Below, piece by piece: positions 10,703 through 38,828 of a stretch of 64,000 bases of DNA. How positions within the stretch are numbered: position 1 is the stretch's first letter; each line of letters opens with the position of its first letter. The stretch is taken from contig NZ_JAGFMD010000005.1 of the NCBI RefSeq assembly GCF_017592825.1, forward strand, positions 124,001 to 188,000, in the 5' to 3' direction. A model generated the notes under the pieces. That model was not told where the DNA came from. It did no database searches and was given only the letters and a program-made list of their open reading frames with translations. The DNA is from Roseivirga sp. E12. Its GTDB lineage: Bacteria; Bacteroidota; Bacteroidia; Cytophagales; Cyclobacteriaceae. Position numbers and translations under genes: made by a program.

Positions 10703-10836
10703 AAAGCTAAGGGGTAGCTTTCCCGTCCTTTTGTTTTACCATACCTCCCTGCGGCAGCATTATCTGCATCAGGTTCAATGGGTATAATCTCAGCCTTTTT
10801 TTAATTCTGGACTTTCCAGAAATAGGCACCCCTTTA
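10703..10836 (-). promoter_or_regulatory. TPP riboswitch (THI element)
   Basis: Read on the minus strand, the conserved blocks occur in order: GGGGTGCC (10825-10832), CTGAGA (10788-10793) followed by TTATACCC, GAACCTGAT (10768-10776), GATAATGC (10757-10764) and AGGGA (10746-10750). This is the canonical thiamin pyrophosphate aptamer. Between aptamer and gene is a hairpin, AAAGCTA / TAGCTTT with a 5-nt loop (10703-10721), that may be the expression platform. It lies ~30 bp before the receptor ATG and could block transcription or initiation when TPP is bound. The aptamer sits after the NadR-like kinase stop, so it controls the receptor and not the kinase or transporter genes upstream. Confidence 0.95.
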
Positions 10837-10876
10837 TTGGCCGCAAGTTAATAAGAAAATGGATTAGCTAAGCGCT

Positions 10877-31637: not shown

Positions 31638-34046
31638 TTATTCGTACCGTAGACTATCCACCGGATTTGCTTTGGCTGCTCTTGAAGTTTGAAAACTCAC
31701 TGTTGCAATCGCGATCAAAAGAACGAGCATTGCTGGGAAAGCAAAAATATACCAATAAAGGTCAATCCTAAAAGCAAAGCTATTTAACCATTGCTCCATA
31801 CCGTAGTAGGCGATCGGAATTGCCAAGATCACGGATACTACAATCAACTTCAAGAAATCTGTAGAAAGGAGTTTCAGGATACTTGGTACCGAAGCCCCTA
31901 ATACTTTTCTAACTCCTATTTCCTTGATTCTCTTAGAAGTCATAAACGCTGCTAAACCGAATAGACCAAGGCAGGCAACAAAAATTGTCAAGCCAGAGAA
32001 GATGGTAAATACAGAGCCGAATTGTTTGTCAGCTTCATATTGATCTTCAAATCGATCTTCAAGGAAGAAGTACTCGAATGGATTACCAGGGAAAAATTGT
32101 GCCCACTTTTCCTGAGCCATTTGAACCACCTGCTGTGTATTTGCAGCATTGTATTTTACTGAATAGAAGCCGTCAGCATTTGGAATAAGTCTAAAAAGCA
32201 ACTTGTCATAATTCTCCTTTAAAGAAGTATGATGATAGTCTTCCATCACACCAATAATAGTATAGACATTACCCCAAAAGTAAATGCGTTCACCCAATGC
32301 CTCCTCAGGATCAGCAAAACCAAAGTCCTTTGCAGCTGCTCTTGAGAACAAAATCTTCGACTCCTCATCACCAAATTCTCTTGAGAAACTTCGACCTGCA
32401 ATCACTTGCATGTCATATGACTCTACAAACTCATAGCCTAGCCCAAGAACTCTATATTGCTTTCCTTCACTGTCAGGTGCTCCTTCTTTTCTAATACCTC
32501 CAGCATTCCAACCAACTCCTCTACCGGGCACGCCAGTACTCACCACTACGTTCTCAACATTTGCATCTGTTTTCATTACCTCAGTAAAAGCAGTAAGCTT
32601 TTCGGTATAGGTAGAGTCCGTTACACTAGGCCCATTAATTACCATTGTTCTGTCAATATCAATACCCAGCTCTTGATTTCTCATAAATGAGATCTGTTCA
32701 TAAACGGTATAAGTCCCTATAATCAGACCCACAGAAGCCATAAACTGGAATATCACCAATCCCTTTCTTAACAATCCGCCTCCACCTGAGGTAAGTTTTG
32801 CGCCTTTAAGGGTATCAATAGGTTTGAAAGATGAAAGCACAAATGCTGGATAAAGTCCTGAAAGGAAGGTACCCACAAAAAAGAGCACACCTAAGCCTAA
32901 CCAGAAGCCCTGTTGAGCAAACAGTGCCATTGTCATCGGTTGATCTGTCAGGTTAGCAAATGCCGGTAGTACCAAAGCCACAATTAAGAAGGCCAATATC
33001 ACCGCGAATAAGTTCACTAAGAAAGACTCAGTTAAAAATTGTCTAATCAATTGGCCTTTTTGCGACCCTAAAACCTTTCTTAACCCAACCTCTCTTGCTC
33101 GTTCCATTGACTTGGCGGTAGCCAGATTGATGTAATTAACCCAAGCGATCAGCACGATAAAGAATGAAATAACCAGCAAGGCATAAACTGAATCACCATC
33201 ACCGTTCACTTCGGCCTCACCTATAAAGTTTGAATTTAGGTGGATATCGGCCATTGGCTGCAGTTCAAAGTCCATCCAGGTATCCACATTTCGCATTTCC
33301 TCGCCCCATTGACTCTCGACAAACTCATCAATCTTTACTTGAAAAGCTTCAGCAGTAACTCCCTCAGCCAGTTCTATATAATTGAAATAACCATCCCAGT
33401 ACCAAACTCGATTGGCATCAGCAGCGAAGTCTCCCTGTGCCGCGGTTGACCATGAGGCAAGAATATCAAACTTAAAATGAGAGTTATCAGGAATATCCTT
33501 AAATACTGCGGTGACTGTAACAGAGCGGTCGCGGTTATACATCAGTGTCTCTCCTACAGGATCTGTTTCTCCAAAATACTTTTTTGCAACGCTCTCAGAA
33601 ATGGCAATTGTATTCATTTCGGTCAGAGCGTTTTCAGTATCACCCTTTACTATTTCCGTTCCGAAGATCCTAAAGGCATCCTGATTTGCGAAGTAGATGT
33701 CCCTCTCCATAAACTCTATATCGCCTTTGGAGATAACACCTCCAGTGGATGTTAGACGTGCATACCTTTCAACTTCAGGATATGCCTCATTGAGTAAATG
33801 GCCTATGGAAACGACTCCAGAAGCCCACTCTGTGCTTAATTCGCCTTGATTGTAGCGGTTAGTTTTAATACGGTAAATCTTAGAAGCATTCTCATTGAAA
33901 TTCTCATAGCTCAACTCATAGTTGACATATTGCATAATGAGTAAGCTGGCTGAAATCCCTAGGGCCAGTCCGGTGATATTGATAAAAGAGAAAATCCGAT
34001 TCTTTAGAAGTGACCGGAATGCGATCTTGATATAATTTTTGAACAT
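31638..34046 (-). CDS. ABC transporter permease, FtsX/MacB type
   Basis: An 802-aa inner-membrane protein with two MacB-like periplasmic core domains and two FtsX membrane blocks. The order is TM1 (~20-40, FINITGLALGISASLLIMQYV), periplasmic domain, three-helix FtsX block (~285-400, containing ARAKEVGLRKVLG-like MERAREVGLRKVLGSQKGQL), a fourth helix (~430), a second periplasmic domain, and a final FtsX block (MTSKRIKEIGVRKVLGASVPSIL). Bacteroidota carry many such permeases, which couple to separately encoded MacB-type ATPases and move lipids, peptides or lipoproteins mechanically. No ATPase gene is adjacent, so the partner and substrate are unknown. Confidence 0.9.
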   Translation of the reverse strand: MFKNYIKIAFRSLLKNRIFSFINITGLALGISASLLIMQYVNYELSYENFNENASKIYRIKTNRYNQGELSTEWASGVVSIGHLLNEAYPEVERYARLTSTGGVISKGDIEFMERDIYFANQDAFRIFGTEIVKGDTENALTEMNTIAISESVAKKYFGETDPVGETLMYNRDRSVTVTAVFKDIPDNSHFKFDILASWSTAAQGDFAADANRVWYWDGYFNYIELAEGVTAEAFQVKIDEFVESQWGEEMRNVDTWMDFELQPMADIHLNSNFIGEAEVNGDGDSVYALLVISFFIVLIAWVNYINLATAKSMERAREVGLRKVLGSQKGQLIRQFLTESFLVNLFAVILAFLIVALVLPAFANLTDQPMTMALFAQQGFWLGLGVLFFVGTFLSGLYPAFVLSSFKPIDTLKGAKLTSGGGGLLRKGLVIFQFMASVGLIIGTYTVYEQISFMRNQELGIDIDRTMVINGPSVTDSTYTEKLTAFTEVMKTDANVENVVVSTGVPGRGVGWNAGGIRKEGAPDSEGKQYRVLGLGYEFVESYDMQVIAGRSFSREFGDEESKILFSRAAAKDFGFADPEEALGERIYFWGNVYTIIGVMEDYHHTSLKENYDKLLFRLIPNADGFYSVKYNAANTQQVVQMAQEKWAQFFPGNPFEYFFLEDRFEDQYEADKQFGSVFTIFSGLTIFVACLGLFGLAAFMTSKRIKEIGVRKVLGASVPSILKLLSTDFLKLIVVSVILAIPIAYYGMEQWLNSFAFRIDLYWYIFAFPAMLVLLIAIATVSFQTSRAAKANPVDSLRYE

Positions 34047-34226
34047 GGTGGTTTGAGTTTATAGTAGGACCTTGATTTTTTAAAGTGGTTACACTTTAAG
34101 ACGACTTTCATATCAGATTATTACAACTTCTTGAAAGACATCAAGGTATGTACAAAGTTGCACTCAGACCCAAGAGGTATCAAAGCGAATTCAGACCGAA
34201 CAGGATATGAGACCGATGGATCGGGA

Positions 34227-34637
34227 CTACCTCAGCCGTTTTTTCATTAAAAAATTCACTTCCTGACCAACGGCCGTCTGTTCTGCAACGTTATCTCTGC
34301 CGTCTCCTAAAGGCAAAGTATAGGCAAAAACAAACTCCCAACCCTGAGCACTCATGTAGTTGAGCGCATCCACAGCCGAATTGAACTTCTTCACTTTTCC
34401 ACTATTCTCATTTCTGATGCGCGTATCGCCACCCCAGAAGTTTCGCTCTTGCCCATAATCGAGTCGAATTGAAACTTTATTAGATAGGAATCGAGGCCTT
34501 ATTCTTATTTGAGCATATACCTCTCTTTGCACTATAGTGGTATCTGCAACTTCAGATTCATAAACACGCTGGCCAAAACTCACATTTGAAATGACCAGGA
34601 AACCCAGCATAAGGGTGAAAAACAATAGCTTTTTCAT
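34227..34637 (-). CDS. Secreted protein of unknown function
   Basis: A 136-aa protein with a signal peptide (MKKLLFFTLMLGFLVISNVSFGQ). The mature part has VYAQIRIRPRFLSNKVSIRLDYGQE, then NSAVDALNYMSAQGWEFVFAYTLPLGDG, and a basic C-terminus. The 'ALNYMSAQGWEF' segment resembles a common motif of small Bacteroidota secreted proteins, but I cannot name a family with confidence. Its start lies 58 bp downstream of a minus-strand hairpin terminator that ends a candidate structured RNA, so it may be controlled by read-through. Confidence 0.6.
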   Translation of the reverse strand: MKKLLFFTLMLGFLVISNVSFGQRVYESEVADTTIVQREVYAQIRIRPRFLSNKVSIRLDYGQERNFWGGDTRIRNENSGKVKKFNSAVDALNYMSAQGWEFVFAYTLPLGDGRDNVAEQTAVGQEVNFLMKKRLR

Positions 34638-34694
34638 CTTCGATATTTTAGGATAAATAAGATAGTAAAATGGAGGGAAAACTTTGGTGGGTAT

Positions 34695-34727
34695 AAAATA
34701 AAAGAGTCACTCCCGTTGGAGCGACTC
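34695..34727 (-). terminator. Intrinsic terminator (hairpin H4 of the candidate RNA)
   Basis: On the minus strand GAGTCGCTCC pairs with GGAGTGACTC (one G-U pair) around AACG, followed by TTTTATTTT. The plus strand would have an A-C mismatch, so the minus direction is favoured. Confidence 0.8.
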
Positions 34728-34861
34728 CCTTTCACCTAAACACCTGGGTAACTAACTACTCATAGTGAATCTTTCGATTCCTACACCCAGACTTATCTTT
34801 AATTTACCGGGCGGTAAATGTTATTTCAAATTCCAGTTCGGGTCTACTATCCCCCGTACTG
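34695..34861 (-). ncRNA. Candidate structured RNA (sRNA or riboswitch-like leader)
   Basis: Four hairpins follow each other on the minus strand. H1: CAGTACGGG / CCCGAACTG with one mismatch (34834-34861). H2: ATTTACC-GCCC-GGTAAAT (34802-34819). H3: outer stem CTGGGT/ACCCAG (34744-34790) enclosing TAG-GAATC-GAAA-GATTC, a GNRA tetraloop. H4: a terminator (34695-34727). A -7-like TAACTTTG (34868-34875) would start transcription near 34861, exactly at H1. H4 pairs perfectly only on the minus strand, through a G-U pair. I do not recognise a known family. It could be a free ~165-nt sRNA or a leader controlling the gene at 34227-34637. No coding frame of note is inside. Confidence 0.55.
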
Positions 34862-34991
34862 TAAAATCAAAGTTAGTAGGATTTTTAATTAAATAAAATT
34901 TAACAAATCAATAATTTCAAAAAAAACGAACAAAATGCTCTAGAAGCTGTTGTGGTCATTTAAATACACTTTTTTGTTGTACGTCCCAACC

Positions 34992-36434
34992 TTACAGTTT
35001 TATACACACATTCTTCTTCTCTGTAAAAAAGTTAAGAACATCCCATCCTCCCTCTCTACCAACACCACTTTTCTTAACACCACCGAAGGGGGTTCTCAGG
35101 TCTCTAAATAGCCAACAATTGACCCAAACGATTCCTGCTTTTAATTCAGAACTCACACGGTTGGCTTTATGCAAATTGCTTGTCCAAACGGTGGCAGAAA
35201 GCCCATATTCCGTACTGTTTGCCATAGCCAAGACATCTTCTTCACTGTCAAATGGTGTAATGGTAACGACTGGGCCGAAAATTTCTTGCTGATTTGTTTG
35301 ACAATCATGCGATAAGCCTTCAATAACTGTCGGTGCTACGTAATAACCCTTGGCCAAATCTCCATCTAGATGAACCTGGTTACCTCCGGTGAGAATCGTT
35401 CCACCTTCTTTTTTGGCAAGATCAATAAAGCCCAATACCTTTTCCATGTGTGGCTTAGAGACCACAGCTCCCAAATTAGAGCCTTCACTAGCAGGATCGC
35501 CTACAACCAGCTTATCTACCCTAGCAACAAAGGCGTCTTTAAACTTGTCATAAATAGACCTTTCCACAAAGATCCTTGACCCACAGAGGCAAATTTGGCC
35601 TTGATTGGCAAAACTAGAGTGAACTGATGTCTTCAAAGCCTCCTCGAAATCGCAGTCTGCGAATATGATGTTCGGATTTTTTCCTCCCAGTTCTAAAGAG
35701 AGTTTCTTAAACATTGGTGCAGCAGTTGCCGCAATTCGTTTACCCGTCTCTGTTCCCCCTGTGAAAGAGATTGCCTTAATTTCTGGATGCTCTGATATGG
35801 CTTGACCTGCATTCGGACCAGTACCATGGACTATGTTCAACACGCCTGCTGGAAGCCCCGCTTCAATACATAATTCCGACAATAAAAAAGCAGTCATCGG
35901 GGTAATCTCAGAAGGCTTGGCCACTACGGTATTACCAGTAGCTATGGCAGGTGCTATCTTCCAGGTGAACAAGTACAAGGGAAGATTCCATGGAGAAATA
36001 CAGCCCACCACACCTATTGGAGATCTCAATGTCATATTAATCGCATCCTGATCACTTTGATGTGCTTCAGTCGACTCATGAAGGATTGCCGTTGCGAAGA
36101 ACCTAAAGTTGGCCGAAGCTCTGGGAATATCTACCCGACTCGCTAGCTTGATAGGCTTTCCATTATCTTTTGATTCAGCCGCGGCCAGACGGTCGTGGTT
36201 CGCATCTATCAGGTCGGCTACCTTAAGCATCAAATCAGAGCGCTCCTTTCTGCTGGTTTTAGACCAAGCTGGAAAAGCATCAGAAGCCGCATCAACAGCT
36301 TGCTGAATGTCCTTGGATGTGGAATCGGGAATTTGACTGTAGACTTCACCATTGGCAGGGTTGTAGTTGTCAAATGATTGGCCATTTGCAGCCTCTACCA
36401 ACTCTCCATTAATGTAATTCTTAATGATCTCCAT
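34992..36434 (-). CDS. nbaE: 2-aminomuconic 6-semialdehyde dehydrogenase
   Basis: A 480-aa NAD-dependent aldehyde dehydrogenase. Catalytic residues are C282 in GQICLCGS, E248 in LELGGK and N150 in SPWN. In the 3-hydroxyanthranilate pathway AMSDH oxidises 2-aminomuconate semialdehyde, the product of ACMSD, to 2-aminomuconate. Sequence features fit the AMSDH/HMSDH subgroup (FTGGTETGKRI, FGGVKKSGVGREGG). The assignment rests mainly on the neighbouring dioxygenase, decarboxylase, kynureninase and monooxygenase genes. It ends the minus-strand operon SDR - dipeptidase - AMSDH, starting 2 bp after the dipeptidase stop. Confidence 0.88.
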   Translation of the reverse strand: MEIIKNYINGELVEAANGQSFDNYNPANGEVYSQIPDSTSKDIQQAVDAASDAFPAWSKTSRKERSDLMLKVADLIDANHDRLAAAESKDNGKPIKLASRVDIPRASANFRFFATAILHESTEAHQSDQDAINMTLRSPIGVVGCISPWNLPLYLFTWKIAPAIATGNTVVAKPSEITPMTAFLLSELCIEAGLPAGVLNIVHGTGPNAGQAISEHPEIKAISFTGGTETGKRIAATAAPMFKKLSLELGGKNPNIIFADCDFEEALKTSVHSSFANQGQICLCGSRIFVERSIYDKFKDAFVARVDKLVVGDPASEGSNLGAVVSKPHMEKVLGFIDLAKKEGGTILTGGNQVHLDGDLAKGYYVAPTVIEGLSHDCQTNQQEIFGPVVTITPFDSEEDVLAMANSTEYGLSATVWTSNLHKANRVSSELKAGIVWVNCWLFRDLRTPFGGVKKSGVGREGGWDVLNFFTEKKNVCIKL

Positions 36435-36436
36435 TG

Positions 36437-37417
36437 TTAATTCCAGTTAGAAACGATAAATCTTTCCACATTTTTATGTGCCAGTCTTGATAACTGATCA
36501 CTTGTTAAATCTTGTTCAAGTTGATTCAGAATTCCGTGATACTTTGAGGCATCCTCATGCTCAGGAAAGTAATAAGGATCTCTCGCAGGGTCGGGAAAGT
36601 CACCAGTATAAAAGAAGTCCGCACCAAACGCCATTGCCTGCTCACCACCTTTTAAATCAAAACCATATTTCACATGATCGAGCAGCGCATTAGCATCATC
36701 ATTATTCAAAAATGCACGTAGAAAGTTGATACCAATAAGCCCTCCTCTATCGACAATCTCCTGTGCGTTCGCCTTGGTTAAATTCCTTGGGTGATCCCAT
36801 ACTTCGCGAAAGTTAGAATGACTTGCTATTACAGGAACCTTAAGCCCCTTTTTATAGGTGTAGTCGAGAATGTCATGGGCCAAGGCATCGGAAGTATGCG
36901 AAAGATCAACCGCAATTTCTCTTCCATCCATATAATCTAGCAAGGCTTCACCGTCAGGCTTTAGTCCAGCTGTCGCGTAGTTTCCACCCCCAAAACGATT
37001 TTCAGTATGATGTGTAAAGCTGATATAAAACAACCTCTCTACATTGGATATAATGGTCTCCAAGTTTTTGAAGGCATTGTCTAGTGGCTCCTCCTCATTG
37101 CAAATACCAGACGCACTTTCTAGAGAAGCAACTATTCCTATTCGGTCGTTAGACGAATCAAATTGGGCATCCGCCTGATAGATATCGGCAGAATAGTCGG
37201 TCAATAATCGCTTATAAATTTCAGATTGTGCTACACCATTTCTTGAACTGGCTTCCTCCACAGCAGTGTAGATGGCCATCACCTGCATTTTGACATTGCC
37301 CTCTTTTAGAAACGGAAACCCTGCACCAAATGCTTTGGTCTCAGGACTCGCATTCTTATTCATGAGCAAATACACCAAAAGGTCGCAATGGAGATCTATG
37401 ACGGGCGCATTCGACAT
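36437..37417 (-). CDS. M19 membrane dipeptidase family protein
   Basis: A 326-aa zinc hydrolase of the renal dipeptidase (M19) family. The first metal motif is HCDLL (HxD), and later metal or substrate histidines are in SFTHHTENRFGGG and VIASHSNFREV, with DHPRNLT. No signal peptide is present when starting at ATG 37417 (MSNAPVIDLHCDLL), so it is cytoplasmic, unlike its name. The frame extends upstream to 37465, but that part overlaps the SDR gene. It lies in the kynurenine operon, 1 bp after the SDR stop and 2 bp before AMSDH. Its substrate is unknown. It could cleave tryptophan- or kynurenine-containing dipeptides or another amide (inference). Confidence 0.82.
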   Translation of the reverse strand: MSNAPVIDLHCDLLVYLLMNKNASPETKAFGAGFPFLKEGNVKMQVMAIYTAVEEASSRNGVAQSEIYKRLLTDYSADIYQADAQFDSSNDRIGIVASLESASGICNEEEPLDNAFKNLETIISNVERLFYISFTHHTENRFGGGNYATAGLKPDGEALLDYMDGREIAVDLSHTSDALAHDILDYTYKKGLKVPVIASHSNFREVWDHPRNLTKANAQEIVDRGGLIGINFLRAFLNNDDANALLDHVKYGFDLKGGEQAMAFGADFFYTGDFPDPARDPYYFPEHEDASKYHGILNQLEQDLTSDQLSRLAHKNVERFIVSNWN

Positions 37418-37418
37418 G

Positions 37419-38207
37419 TTAAAGGCTCCCCGTCCTTCCTCCGTCAACCGGAAGGTTAACACCATTGATGTAACCGGCTGATGGAGTTGCTAAGAACACC
37501 GCTGCCGCTGCCACCTCCTTGGCATCCGCAAAACGCTTGGCAGGCACGCTGGCTTTCATTGCAGCATCGACTTCTTCGATACTCTTTCCAGTTTTCTTAG
37601 CCTTGTTTTCAATGATCGAGCTTAGGCGTTGTGTAGAAGTTGCTCCCGGTAGAACGTTGTTAACTGTTATTCCAAACTGGCCCAATTCGTTTGCCAAAGT
37701 CTTAGACCAGTTGGCAACTGCGCCTCTAATCGTATTCGAAACACCTAAGCCTTGCAATGGCACTTTGACCGAGGTACTGATGATATTGACAATCCGACCA
37801 TAAGCCGAATCTTTCATACCAGGAACCATCGCTTGGGCGAGAATTTGATTGCAAATCAAGTGCTGATTAAAGGCAATTCTGAACTCATCTATACCAGCAT
37901 CAATTGCCTGACCACCAGGAGGACCTCCTGTATTGTTAATCAGAATGTGATATACACTTCCTTGACCCAGATGCTCGTCAATCGCAGATTTTAATTGATC
38001 TGGTTTCGAAAAGTCGGCCACTAATGTTTGATGATTTTGACCAGAAGTGTGAAAAAGTTCAGACTTCACCTGACTCAGCACTTCCTCGTTACGAGCGCAT
38101 AAAGTAACGCTGGCTCCAAGGTTGGCCAATTCTTCGGCTATTGCTTTGCCTATTCCTTGCGTACTACCACATACGAAGGCATTTTTTCCATTTAAGTTAA
38201 GATCCAT
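37419..38207 (-). CDS. Short-chain dehydrogenase/reductase-like protein with atypical active site
   Basis: A 262-aa SDR-fold protein. The nucleotide motif GSTQGIGKAIAEEL and the NNTGGPPGG segment are clear. The catalytic S-Y-K triad is altered: the STSVKVP serine region is present, but the YxxxK helix reads VSNTIRGAVANW, so Tyr and Lys are replaced. A subgroup of bacterial SDRs annotated as 3-oxoacyl-ACP-reductase-like shares the 'SN..R' pattern, so it is a family trait and not decay. The ATG at 38207 is preferred to an upstream TTG at 38228. It is the first gene of the minus-strand kynurenine operon, divergent from the 3-hydroxyanthranilate dioxygenase. Confidence 0.8.
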   Translation of the reverse strand: MDLNLNGKNAFVCGSTQGIGKAIAEELANLGASVTLCARNEEVLSQVKSELFHTSGQNHQTLVADFSKPDQLKSAIDEHLGQGSVYHILINNTGGPPGGQAIDAGIDEFRIAFNQHLICNQILAQAMVPGMKDSAYGRIVNIISTSVKVPLQGLGVSNTIRGAVANWSKTLANELGQFGITVNNVLPGATSTQRLSSIIENKAKKTGKSIEEVDAAMKASVPAKRFADAKEVAAAAVFLATPSAGYINGVNLPVDGGRTGSL

Positions 38208-38297
38208 AAGTTTTGGGCTATCAACCAAAGTTATGAAAATCGGGTTTAGTCCTACCGTGATTTTCTGTATTTTAGAGGCAAGCTAAATAGAAAGGAA

Positions 38298-38828
38298 ATG
38301 GGCATTAAAAGACCTTTCAATCTGAATCAATGGATTGAAGATAATCGCGATTTACTGAAGCCTCCCGTAGGTAACAAAAACCTGTATCCTGAAGGGACCG
38401 ATTACATTGTCATGATAGTTGCTGGACCGAACGCCAGAAAAGATTATCACTACAATGAGACGGAAGAACTTTTCTATCAGCTGGAAGGAAACATTACGGT
38501 CCGAATTCAAGAAGATGGAAAAGCAGTCGATATCCCACTTGGCCCAGGCGATATGTATTTGCACCCACCAAAGGTGCCCCACTCTCCCATGCGATCAGAA
38601 GGCTCTATCGGTTTAGTGATCGAACGTGTCCGAAAACCTGAGCATACTGATGGCCTCATGTGGTTTTGTGACAACTGCAACAACAAGCTGCATGATACTT
38701 ATTTCCCACTAACCAATATTGAGAAAGACTTTCTGCCAAGGTTCAAAGAATTCTATGGTTCAGAAGACCTAAGAACCTGTAAGAGTTGCGGTCACACTAT
38801 GGAAGCTGATCCAAGGTTTGTGGAATAG
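38298..38828 (+). CDS. nbaC: 3-hydroxyanthranilate 3,4-dioxygenase
   Basis: This 176-aa cupin enzyme opens the ring of 3-hydroxyanthranilate to 2-amino-3-carboxymuconate semialdehyde. The iron ligands H51, E57 and H95 fall at exactly the positions known for the Cupriavidus enzyme. The C-terminal rubredoxin-like second metal site is present: CDNC (124-127) and CKSC (161-164), typical of the bacterial form. It is the first gene of the plus-strand operon. A four-helix-bundle gene with flanking inverted repeats is inserted between it and ACMSD. Confidence 0.96.
   Translation: MGIKRPFNLNQWIEDNRDLLKPPVGNKNLYPEGTDYIVMIVAGPNARKDYHYNETEELFYQLEGNITVRIQEDGKAVDIPLGPGDMYLHPPKVPHSPMRSEGSIGLVIERVRKPEHTDGLMWFCDNCNNKLHDTYFPLTNIEKDFLPRFKEFYGSEDLRTCKSCGHTMEADPRFVE

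Follow-up and report, generated by a model that had tools for sequence, protein, structure and literature searches.

A stretch of the genome of Roseivirga sp. E12 very probably encodes a small regulatory RNA. It is found on the minus strand at positions 34695-34875 of the window, by which is meant the whole stretch of DNA that was analysed (64,000 nucleotides), and the minus-strand reading covers 34904-34700. Judging from the sequences of the RNA and of its matches, it is likely to be a free-standing, trans-acting antisense sRNA whose seed, GUGUUUAGGUGAAA, would pair with the mRNAs of ftsZ, of a gene called gene A here and of some giant secreted proteins. It would be a new family that works in the way of known trans-acting sRNAs. 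Transcription would start at a promoter of its own and stop at the terminator that closes the RNA, and the seed, often extended to either side, would pair with complementary sites in mRNAs. In the leader of gene A the duplex would form some 8-29 nt upstream of the ATG and should thereby keep ribosomes from loading, and a second gene A site just past the stop codon would also be paired. In ftsZ mRNA most species would have the pairing site in linker codons, a few others shortly after the stop codon, and at the starts of some giant secreted-protein genes it should again block ribosome loading. At the sites within coding sequences or after stop codons, the outcome could be decay, stabilisation (protection) or sponging. 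The features of the locus and its neighbours, all on the minus strand, are as follows.

34992 to 36434, minus strand: aldehyde dehydrogenase gene, the 5' neighbour in 18 of 19 genomes (relatives recognised by eye)
34876 to 34904, minus strand: conserved A/T-rich block GTTAAATTTTATTTAATTAAAAATCCTAC, 5' of the -7 box in the 19-sequence alignment
34868 to 34875, minus strand: -7 promoter box TAACTTTG (TAnnTTTG), identical pattern in 19/19 aligned genomes
34834 to 34861, minus strand: hairpin 1, at the predicted 5' end, 8 pairs and one mismatch; sequence and length differ among species
34802 to 34819, minus strand: hairpin 2 (ATTTACC/GGTAAAT), 7 bp, with both-sided changes in 6 of 7 pairs
34738 to 34798 (core 34791-34743), minus strand: hairpin 3, a long stem of 21 pairs with a GAAA loop, from alignment and fold
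34775 to 34772, minus strand: loop of hairpin 3, GNRA-type in most genomes
34761 to 34750, minus strand: 3' bulge of hairpin 3, GAGUAGUUAGUU, 12 nt, nearly invariant
34730 to 34743, minus strand: putative seed GUGUUUAGGUGAAA, between hairpin 3 and the terminator; its complement occurs in the mRNAs of ftsZ, gene A and some giant secreted proteins
34700 to 34731, minus strand: hairpin 4, an intrinsic terminator with 14 pairs, the loop AACG and a U-rich tail
34227 to 34637, minus strand: small secreted-protein gene, the 3' neighbour about 60 nt from the RNA; not conserved as a neighbour

The original prediction had described a -7 motif followed by four minus-strand hairpins, namely an 8-of-9 paired stem, a 7-bp dyad, a long stem capped by GAAA and a terminator, and all of these were recovered at the positions above. 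The fold has an energy of -55.5 kcal/mol compared to -40.7 +/- 4.0 for shuffled sequences (z -3.67), and 1 of 200 shuffles folds equally well. The -7 box follows TAnnTTTG, the Bacteroidota -7 consensus; upstream of it, a -33 box of the TTTG type is absent at the usual spacing. The terminator is the sole terminator-like site called within 34000-36500, but such a call proves nothing by itself, since shuffled sequences yield 2.3 calls on average. Each of the three reading frames through the RNA, as it stands in the window, is interrupted by stop codons. From these elements the transcript is inferred to be about 165-170 nt long here and longer in some relatives. Across the 19 genomes aligned, the stretch 5' of the conserved core ranges from 49 to 153 nt, the strongly conserved part runs from about 34806 to 34695, and the 3' ~110 nt are nearly invariant. 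The loop of hairpin 3 is GNRA-type (GAAA, GUAA or GUGA) in 17 of the 19 and U-rich in the remaining L010 and L016.

Looking for compensatory base changes had been proposed together with the original prediction, and these were found: cells changed on both sides of a pair number 25 in the alignment, against 10.4 in shuffles, and none of 500 shuffles reaches 25. Nine of the 42 pairs change on both sides, giving a score of 0.131 compared to 0.090 for shuffled alignments and at most 0.045 when the structure is slid along the sequences. Overall, 95.0% of cells are paired in the 19-sequence alignment (92.5% shuffled, under 50% slid). Hairpin 2 supplies 6 of the 9 both-sided pairs, yet only 73.4% of its cells pair and several genomes do not fit it well. 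In hairpins 3 and 4, where 99% of cells are paired, both-sided changes occur in 2 of 21 pairs and in 1 of 14 pairs, respectively, the latter in a terminator stem whose sequence is otherwise nearly invariant. The structure of the RNA is thus conserved, with compensatory changes in hairpins 2, 3 and 4.

Neither Rfam nor the open-licence literature searched gives the RNA a name, in keeping with the earlier remark that it could not be matched to a named family. No family of Rfam 15 matches over its gathering score at the RNA, and the five matches from a permissive search of 34600-35000 (best E 1.5) all fall well short of the gathering score of their family. The only Rfam match over the gathering score in the window is a TPP riboswitch at 10728-10843 on the minus strand. 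In an open-licence PMC search no description of the RNA was found, nor any paper joining 'Roseivirga' and 'sRNA'. A strongly conserved RNA without a family could be the divergent 6S RNA of Roseivirga or another housekeeping structural RNA, all the more as 6S seems to be missing elsewhere: eight Roseivirga genomes have no RF00013 match, and RF01685 matched once, below threshold (E 0.57, in G009), although for RF01685 this absence is weak evidence since no control genome came over the cut-off either. The fold of 6S RNA is a long end-to-end hairpin with a central bubble. The RNA described here is predicted to fold without an end-closing stem or a central bubble, its 5' part is variable, and its 3' end is a terminator. 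Furthermore, SRP RNA is found elsewhere in 8/8 genomes, and a housekeeping role would leave the conserved complementarity to ftsZ and gene A unexplained. We regard this reading as very improbable; 6S RNA itself was rejected on the differing fold and on the lack of RF00013 and RF01685 matches over cut-off.

The gene neighbourhood bears on whether the RNA stands on its own. The original prediction had left it as either an sRNA or a regulatory leader, and the first part of this is favoured by the promoter, the terminator, the compensatory changes and the complementarity to mRNAs. The position, about 60 nt upstream of the secreted-protein gene at 34227-34637 and on the same strand, would suit a cis-acting leader of that gene. 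However, the terminator stands between the two, and the RNA is unchanged where the downstream gene differs. In the 19 genomes this gene may be a MacB-type permease with or without a small secreted protein, a membrane protein, a convergent hydrolase-like gene or others (classified by eye). With an upstream neighbour that is constant in 18 of 19 genomes and a downstream one that is not, the RNA is read as a free-standing sRNA rather than a cis-acting leader or riboswitch, and synteny makes the leader part of the prediction hardly tenable. On the upstream side, genes for an aldehyde dehydrogenase, an M19-peptidase-like protein, a short-chain dehydrogenase and a 3-hydroxyanthranilate dioxygenase adjoin one another at 34992-38828, which is presumably a cluster for tryptophan/kynurenine breakdown.

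The RNA is found in all 19 Roseivirga genomes of a DNA search over 59 genomes (E 1e-95 to 3e-27), with one strong copy per genome. Matches in other genera in the same search are limited to seven pieces of 19-26 nt with E 0.0095 or weaker. Among named genomes, scanning for an exact pattern gave 16 contigs: those of Roseivirga pacifica, R. thermotolerans, R. ehrenbergii, R. echinicomitans, R. seohaensis and R. spongicola, seven Roseivirga-labelled contigs from metagenome-assembled genomes (MAGs) or uncultured organisms, and three MAGs whose labels go no further than Cyclobacteriaceae, Cytophagales or Cytophagia. A covariance model built from the RNA was run on 245 genomes of the family with strict filters, under which weak matches are lost. 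It matched 22 of them, including all nine Roseivirga genomes in the sample at E 8.6e-32 or better, and gave no convincing homologue in the 236 non-Roseivirga genomes with those filters. The 13 weak matches outside Roseivirga (E 5e-5 to 0.44) were not counted as homologues because what they have in common with the RNA is mainly an AGGTGA-plus-terminator end (9 loci re-searched, 8 alignments). Some loci in these searches have features of their own. In one Roseivirga genome (L030, G012:C64, about 125210) part of the 3' half of the RNA is present a second time, with the bulge and the seed but without the terminator. In another genus of the family, L050 and L051 consist of head-to-tail AGATACGGGATAATACAGGTGGATTAAA-like units, each with its own terminator, which is possibly a tandem array of small RNAs. 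AGGTGAT repeats, similar to the TTAGGTGATTAGGTGA-type repeats of Roseivirga, are found 5' of a terminator in L046 and L052-L054, again in a non-Roseivirga genus.

The part of the RNA that looks like the seed was recognised from its recurrence elsewhere in the genome. In the window's own genome 21 nt of the RNA recur at C34, antisense to ftsZ (DNA search), and complementarity at such sites often reaches to 34724 or extends 5' towards 34749. For the 14-mer GTGTTTAGGTGAAA, allowing at most one mismatch, 131 sites were counted across the 19 genomes. Without the 19 copies in the RNA itself, 112 are left, compared to 46 for the reversed pattern. The 20-mer GTGTTTAGGTGAAAGGGAGT with at most three mismatches gives 28 non-self sites against 8 for its reversed control. 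When the 20-mer is moved 9 nt upstream, 5 non-self sites remain against 6 in the control in the same genomes, so the upstream extension is not part of the seed in general; some of it is nevertheless matched in the leaders of gene A. In the predicted fold the seed is only partly open, a point against the proposed pairing: the mean unpaired probability is 0.36 over the 19 sequences, with 0.20-0.23 in four of them. Since the seed is almost invariant, compensatory change between seed and target is not demonstrable. After merging identical contexts, the 112 sites become 106 contexts, which fall into the following classes; genes were called by a simple open-frame heuristic, and one gene family may contribute more than one context to a class.

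Antisense near a start codon (-45 to +15): 15 of 106, with fewer independent cases, since gene A accounts for 4, a single giant-protein family for another 4 and a single regulator gene for 2
Sense near a start codon: 1 of 106
Both strands near a start codon: 1 of 106
Antisense 0-45 nt past a stop codon: 16 of 106 (12 gene A, 2 ftsZ; L256 is better read as sense-plus-terminator)
Antisense within coding sequence: 19 of 106 (10 are ftsZ)
Sense within coding sequence: 13 of 106
Sense, then a terminator: 15 of 106
Sense past a stop codon, no terminator called: 8 of 106
Tandem TTAGGTGA repeats: 8 of 106
Other: 10 of 106

A motif that occurs at many loci may also be a binding site on DNA. If GTGTTTAGGT/ACCTAAACAC were recognised by a DNA-binding regulator and the RNA merely held a copy of it, the double-stranded site would explain the complementary copies without any pairing, and it is true that gene A has the motif on both sides. 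Copies within ftsZ codons, past stop codons and 3' of the probable gene A promoter (in the 7 of 15 cases with a visible -7-like box) are hard to reconcile with this, as are the strand bias near start codons (15 antisense against 1 sense) and the 21-nt match to the RNA in ftsZ of G000 and G001. We therefore consider a regulator site unlikely. At the level of whole genomes, ACCTAAACAC occurs 4-26 nt before any ATG 91 times, barely above the 75 of the control; this lack of a clear enrichment at start codons in general is a point against the sRNA reading.

One candidate target of the antisense sRNA, gene A, has conserved sites on both sides of its coding region, which is unusual. Gene A encodes a protein of 211-215 aa, found in 15 of the 19 Roseivirga genomes and not found in 4. 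The orthologues share 38-91% identity with the query, and have no match in Pfam, NCBIfam or PDB. Where the neighbourhood was looked at, the next gene is in several cases one for a zinc-ribbon (DUF3667) protein. In the leaders, CCTAAAC is present in 15/15, starting 16-24 nt before the ATG (for G007 the start codon was taken later than the first Met), and the match to the 14-mer is 9-13 of 14. In the trailers, a match of 11-14 of 14 is present in 15/15, starting 5-13 nt after the stop codon and before a terminator. Calculated duplex energies with the RNA average -22.9 kcal/mol for leaders and -29.4 kcal/mol for trailers, compared to about -13.8 kcal/mol for shuffled sequences. A simple pattern places a -7-like box 5' of the leader site in 7 of 15 genomes, so in these 7 the site lies within the transcribed leader. 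A second copy of gene A, in G010, lacks both sites. Relatives of gene A in six genomes of three other genera have no CCTAAAC and nothing above 10/14 in leader or trailer (0/6), and in the same six genomes the RNA was not found by the covariance model with strict filters. Between the probable promoter and the seed-complementary site of many gene A leaders (L173-L187) there seems, by eye, to be a small hairpin of varying sequence.

The arrangement at gene A raises the question of which partner is being regulated. The gene A and ftsZ mRNAs might act as sponges that titrate the sRNA while its important targets lie elsewhere; two sites per gene A mRNA would suit such a role, and the strongest matches are indeed those after the stop codon (up to 14/14 plus flanks). 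The leader site argues against it, being situated where pairing should block initiation as for GibS and FopS, and its core is kept in 15/15 leaders. A sponge is thus a rather unlikely explanation. GibS and FopS of Bacteroides thetaiotaomicron are described as pairing through a single-stranded seed at translation initiation regions, and FopS as having an intrinsic terminator, belonging to a family with one common seed and counting outer-membrane SusC mRNAs among its targets (PMC11697453, PMC7366714). By analogy with these sRNAs, pairing of the Roseivirga seed at start-codon sites should block initiation. The RNA resembles them in being a Bacteroidota sRNA for which seed pairing is predicted at initiation regions. 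Compared by description, FopS and GibS have their seeds (R1) in the 5' part and are characterised by a consensus deposited in Rfam, whereas the Roseivirga seed adjoins the terminator. Unlike them, the Roseivirga RNA is structured, is present as one strong copy per genome and has no Rfam match, and the FopS and GibS targets described in those papers include neither ftsZ nor a gene with sites at both ends. Another case is Rfp18 of Flavobacterium psychrophilum, a structured, genus-conserved sRNA in which one region is predicted to pair with several secreted-protein mRNAs, one predicted site being between two operon genes (PMC9723704). As described there, Rfp18 pairs via its third stem-loop and targets metalloproteases and an adhesin, which sets it apart from the Roseivirga RNA (PMC9723704). 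According to a B. thetaiotaomicron paper, that species has no obvious Hfq or ProQ. In the limited literature drawn on here, which is not a full survey, targets of Bacteroidota sRNAs are described for Bacteroides and Flavobacterium only. The RNA described here offers a precise seed and well-defined candidate targets that can be tested, among them the division gene ftsZ. If the pairing is confirmed, Roseivirga would be well suited to studying how sRNAs act within coding sequences and immediately 3' of stop codons.

The sites in ftsZ are unusual in another way, as they lie in linker codons or, in three genomes, past the stop. ftsZ is present in 19/19 genomes, and the copy of the window's genome passes TIGR00065. 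In 10 of the 19 (G000-G003, G005, G012 and G015-G018) the C-terminal-linker codons for (S)LSPKH are complementary to the 14-mer at 13-14 of 14 positions, and in G000 and G001 the match spans 21 nt of the RNA. In three others (G004, G006 and G007) the linker shows no site and a 13/14 match is found 8 nt downstream of the stop instead, though the sequence read for G007 covers just the C-terminal part of the gene, with the linker outside it. The linker place matches at 11/14 in G011 and 10/14 in G009, while the site is absent in G008, G010, G013 and G014, so that 6 of 19 genomes have no good site overall. In the eight linker-site genomes that remain when near-duplicates are left out, the same codon is used in 100 of 112 same-residue pairs at LSPKH, a window picked because of its seed match; this is 0.89 compared to a mean of 0.48 along ftsZ, the 98.9 percentile of 435 windows. 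In 16 genomes with or without the site the value is 0.74 (97.4 percentile of 500). The sameness of codons under the site means that selection seems to act on the nucleotides, and the linker site is apparently kept at nucleotide level in codons that otherwise change fast. When all 157 14-nt windows of the RNA were compared with the 19 ftsZ mRNAs, windows over the seed reached 13/14 in up to 13 genomes and none away from the seed reached it in any; in gene A, seed windows reached at least 11/14 in up to 13/15 leaders and 15/15 trailers, against at most 3/15 for windows clear of the seed and at most 3 on the sense strand. Because it was the seed search that led to gene A and to the ftsZ site, pooled match counts are not independent of that search. 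As a precedent, DicF of Escherichia coli, a 53-nt RNA of prophage origin, pairs with ftsZ mRNA at the ribosome binding site (PMC5069750). The Roseivirga RNA is likewise complementary to ftsZ mRNA, but within linker codons or downstream of the stop codon, and its gene is conserved across the genus. Just 3' of ftsZ (L152-L171), a terminator hairpin of the CAGCCTACTGCCATGGGCTG type is nearly invariant in most Roseivirga genomes, the terminator stem of the RNA being nearly invariant too.

Among the start-codon sites outside gene A, the following four belong to giant secreted-protein genes.

G003, 2345 aa: seed complement 18 nt before the ATG; protein with T9SS sorting tail TIGR04183
G005, 2330 aa: seed complement 25 nt before the ATG; no NCBIfam match
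G007, 2311 aa: seed complement 7 nt inside the first ATG
G018, 1857 aa: seed complement 13 nt inside the first ATG

The four proteins look alike by eye, and three of their genes head arrays of such genes. Start-codon sites are also found at a response-regulator-like gene (G008, G010) and at some single genes. The opposite strand appears at the other end of certain genes: in G004, G015 and G016, genes for T9SS-tailed proteins (TIGR04183) end with a sense-strand copy of the seed, and a terminator or hairpin comes directly 3' of this copy. The simplest reading of these sequences is that some gene 3' ends bear a sibling seed. Small RNAs from mRNA 3' ends, and autoregulation by them, have been described (PMC9438474, PMC7398697); a seed plus terminator at the 3' ends of some Roseivirga T9SS-protein genes is similar to these, while the main Roseivirga RNA differs in having its own promoter. 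It is conceivable, though doubtful, that one seed runs a genus-wide network linking cell division to surface adhesion, in which the sRNA would pair with ftsZ, with the gene A mRNA at its two ends and with giant secreted-protein starts, and the 3' UTRs of other T9SS-secreted giants would act as sibling sRNAs. If so, the shift of the ftsZ site between linker codons and the region past the stop would be a relocation under selection, and making one set of surface proteins would silence another. Dispersed tandem repeats of the TTAGGTGATTAGGTGA type are also present in several Roseivirga genomes (L085, L233, L236, L251, L254, L257, L263 and L265).
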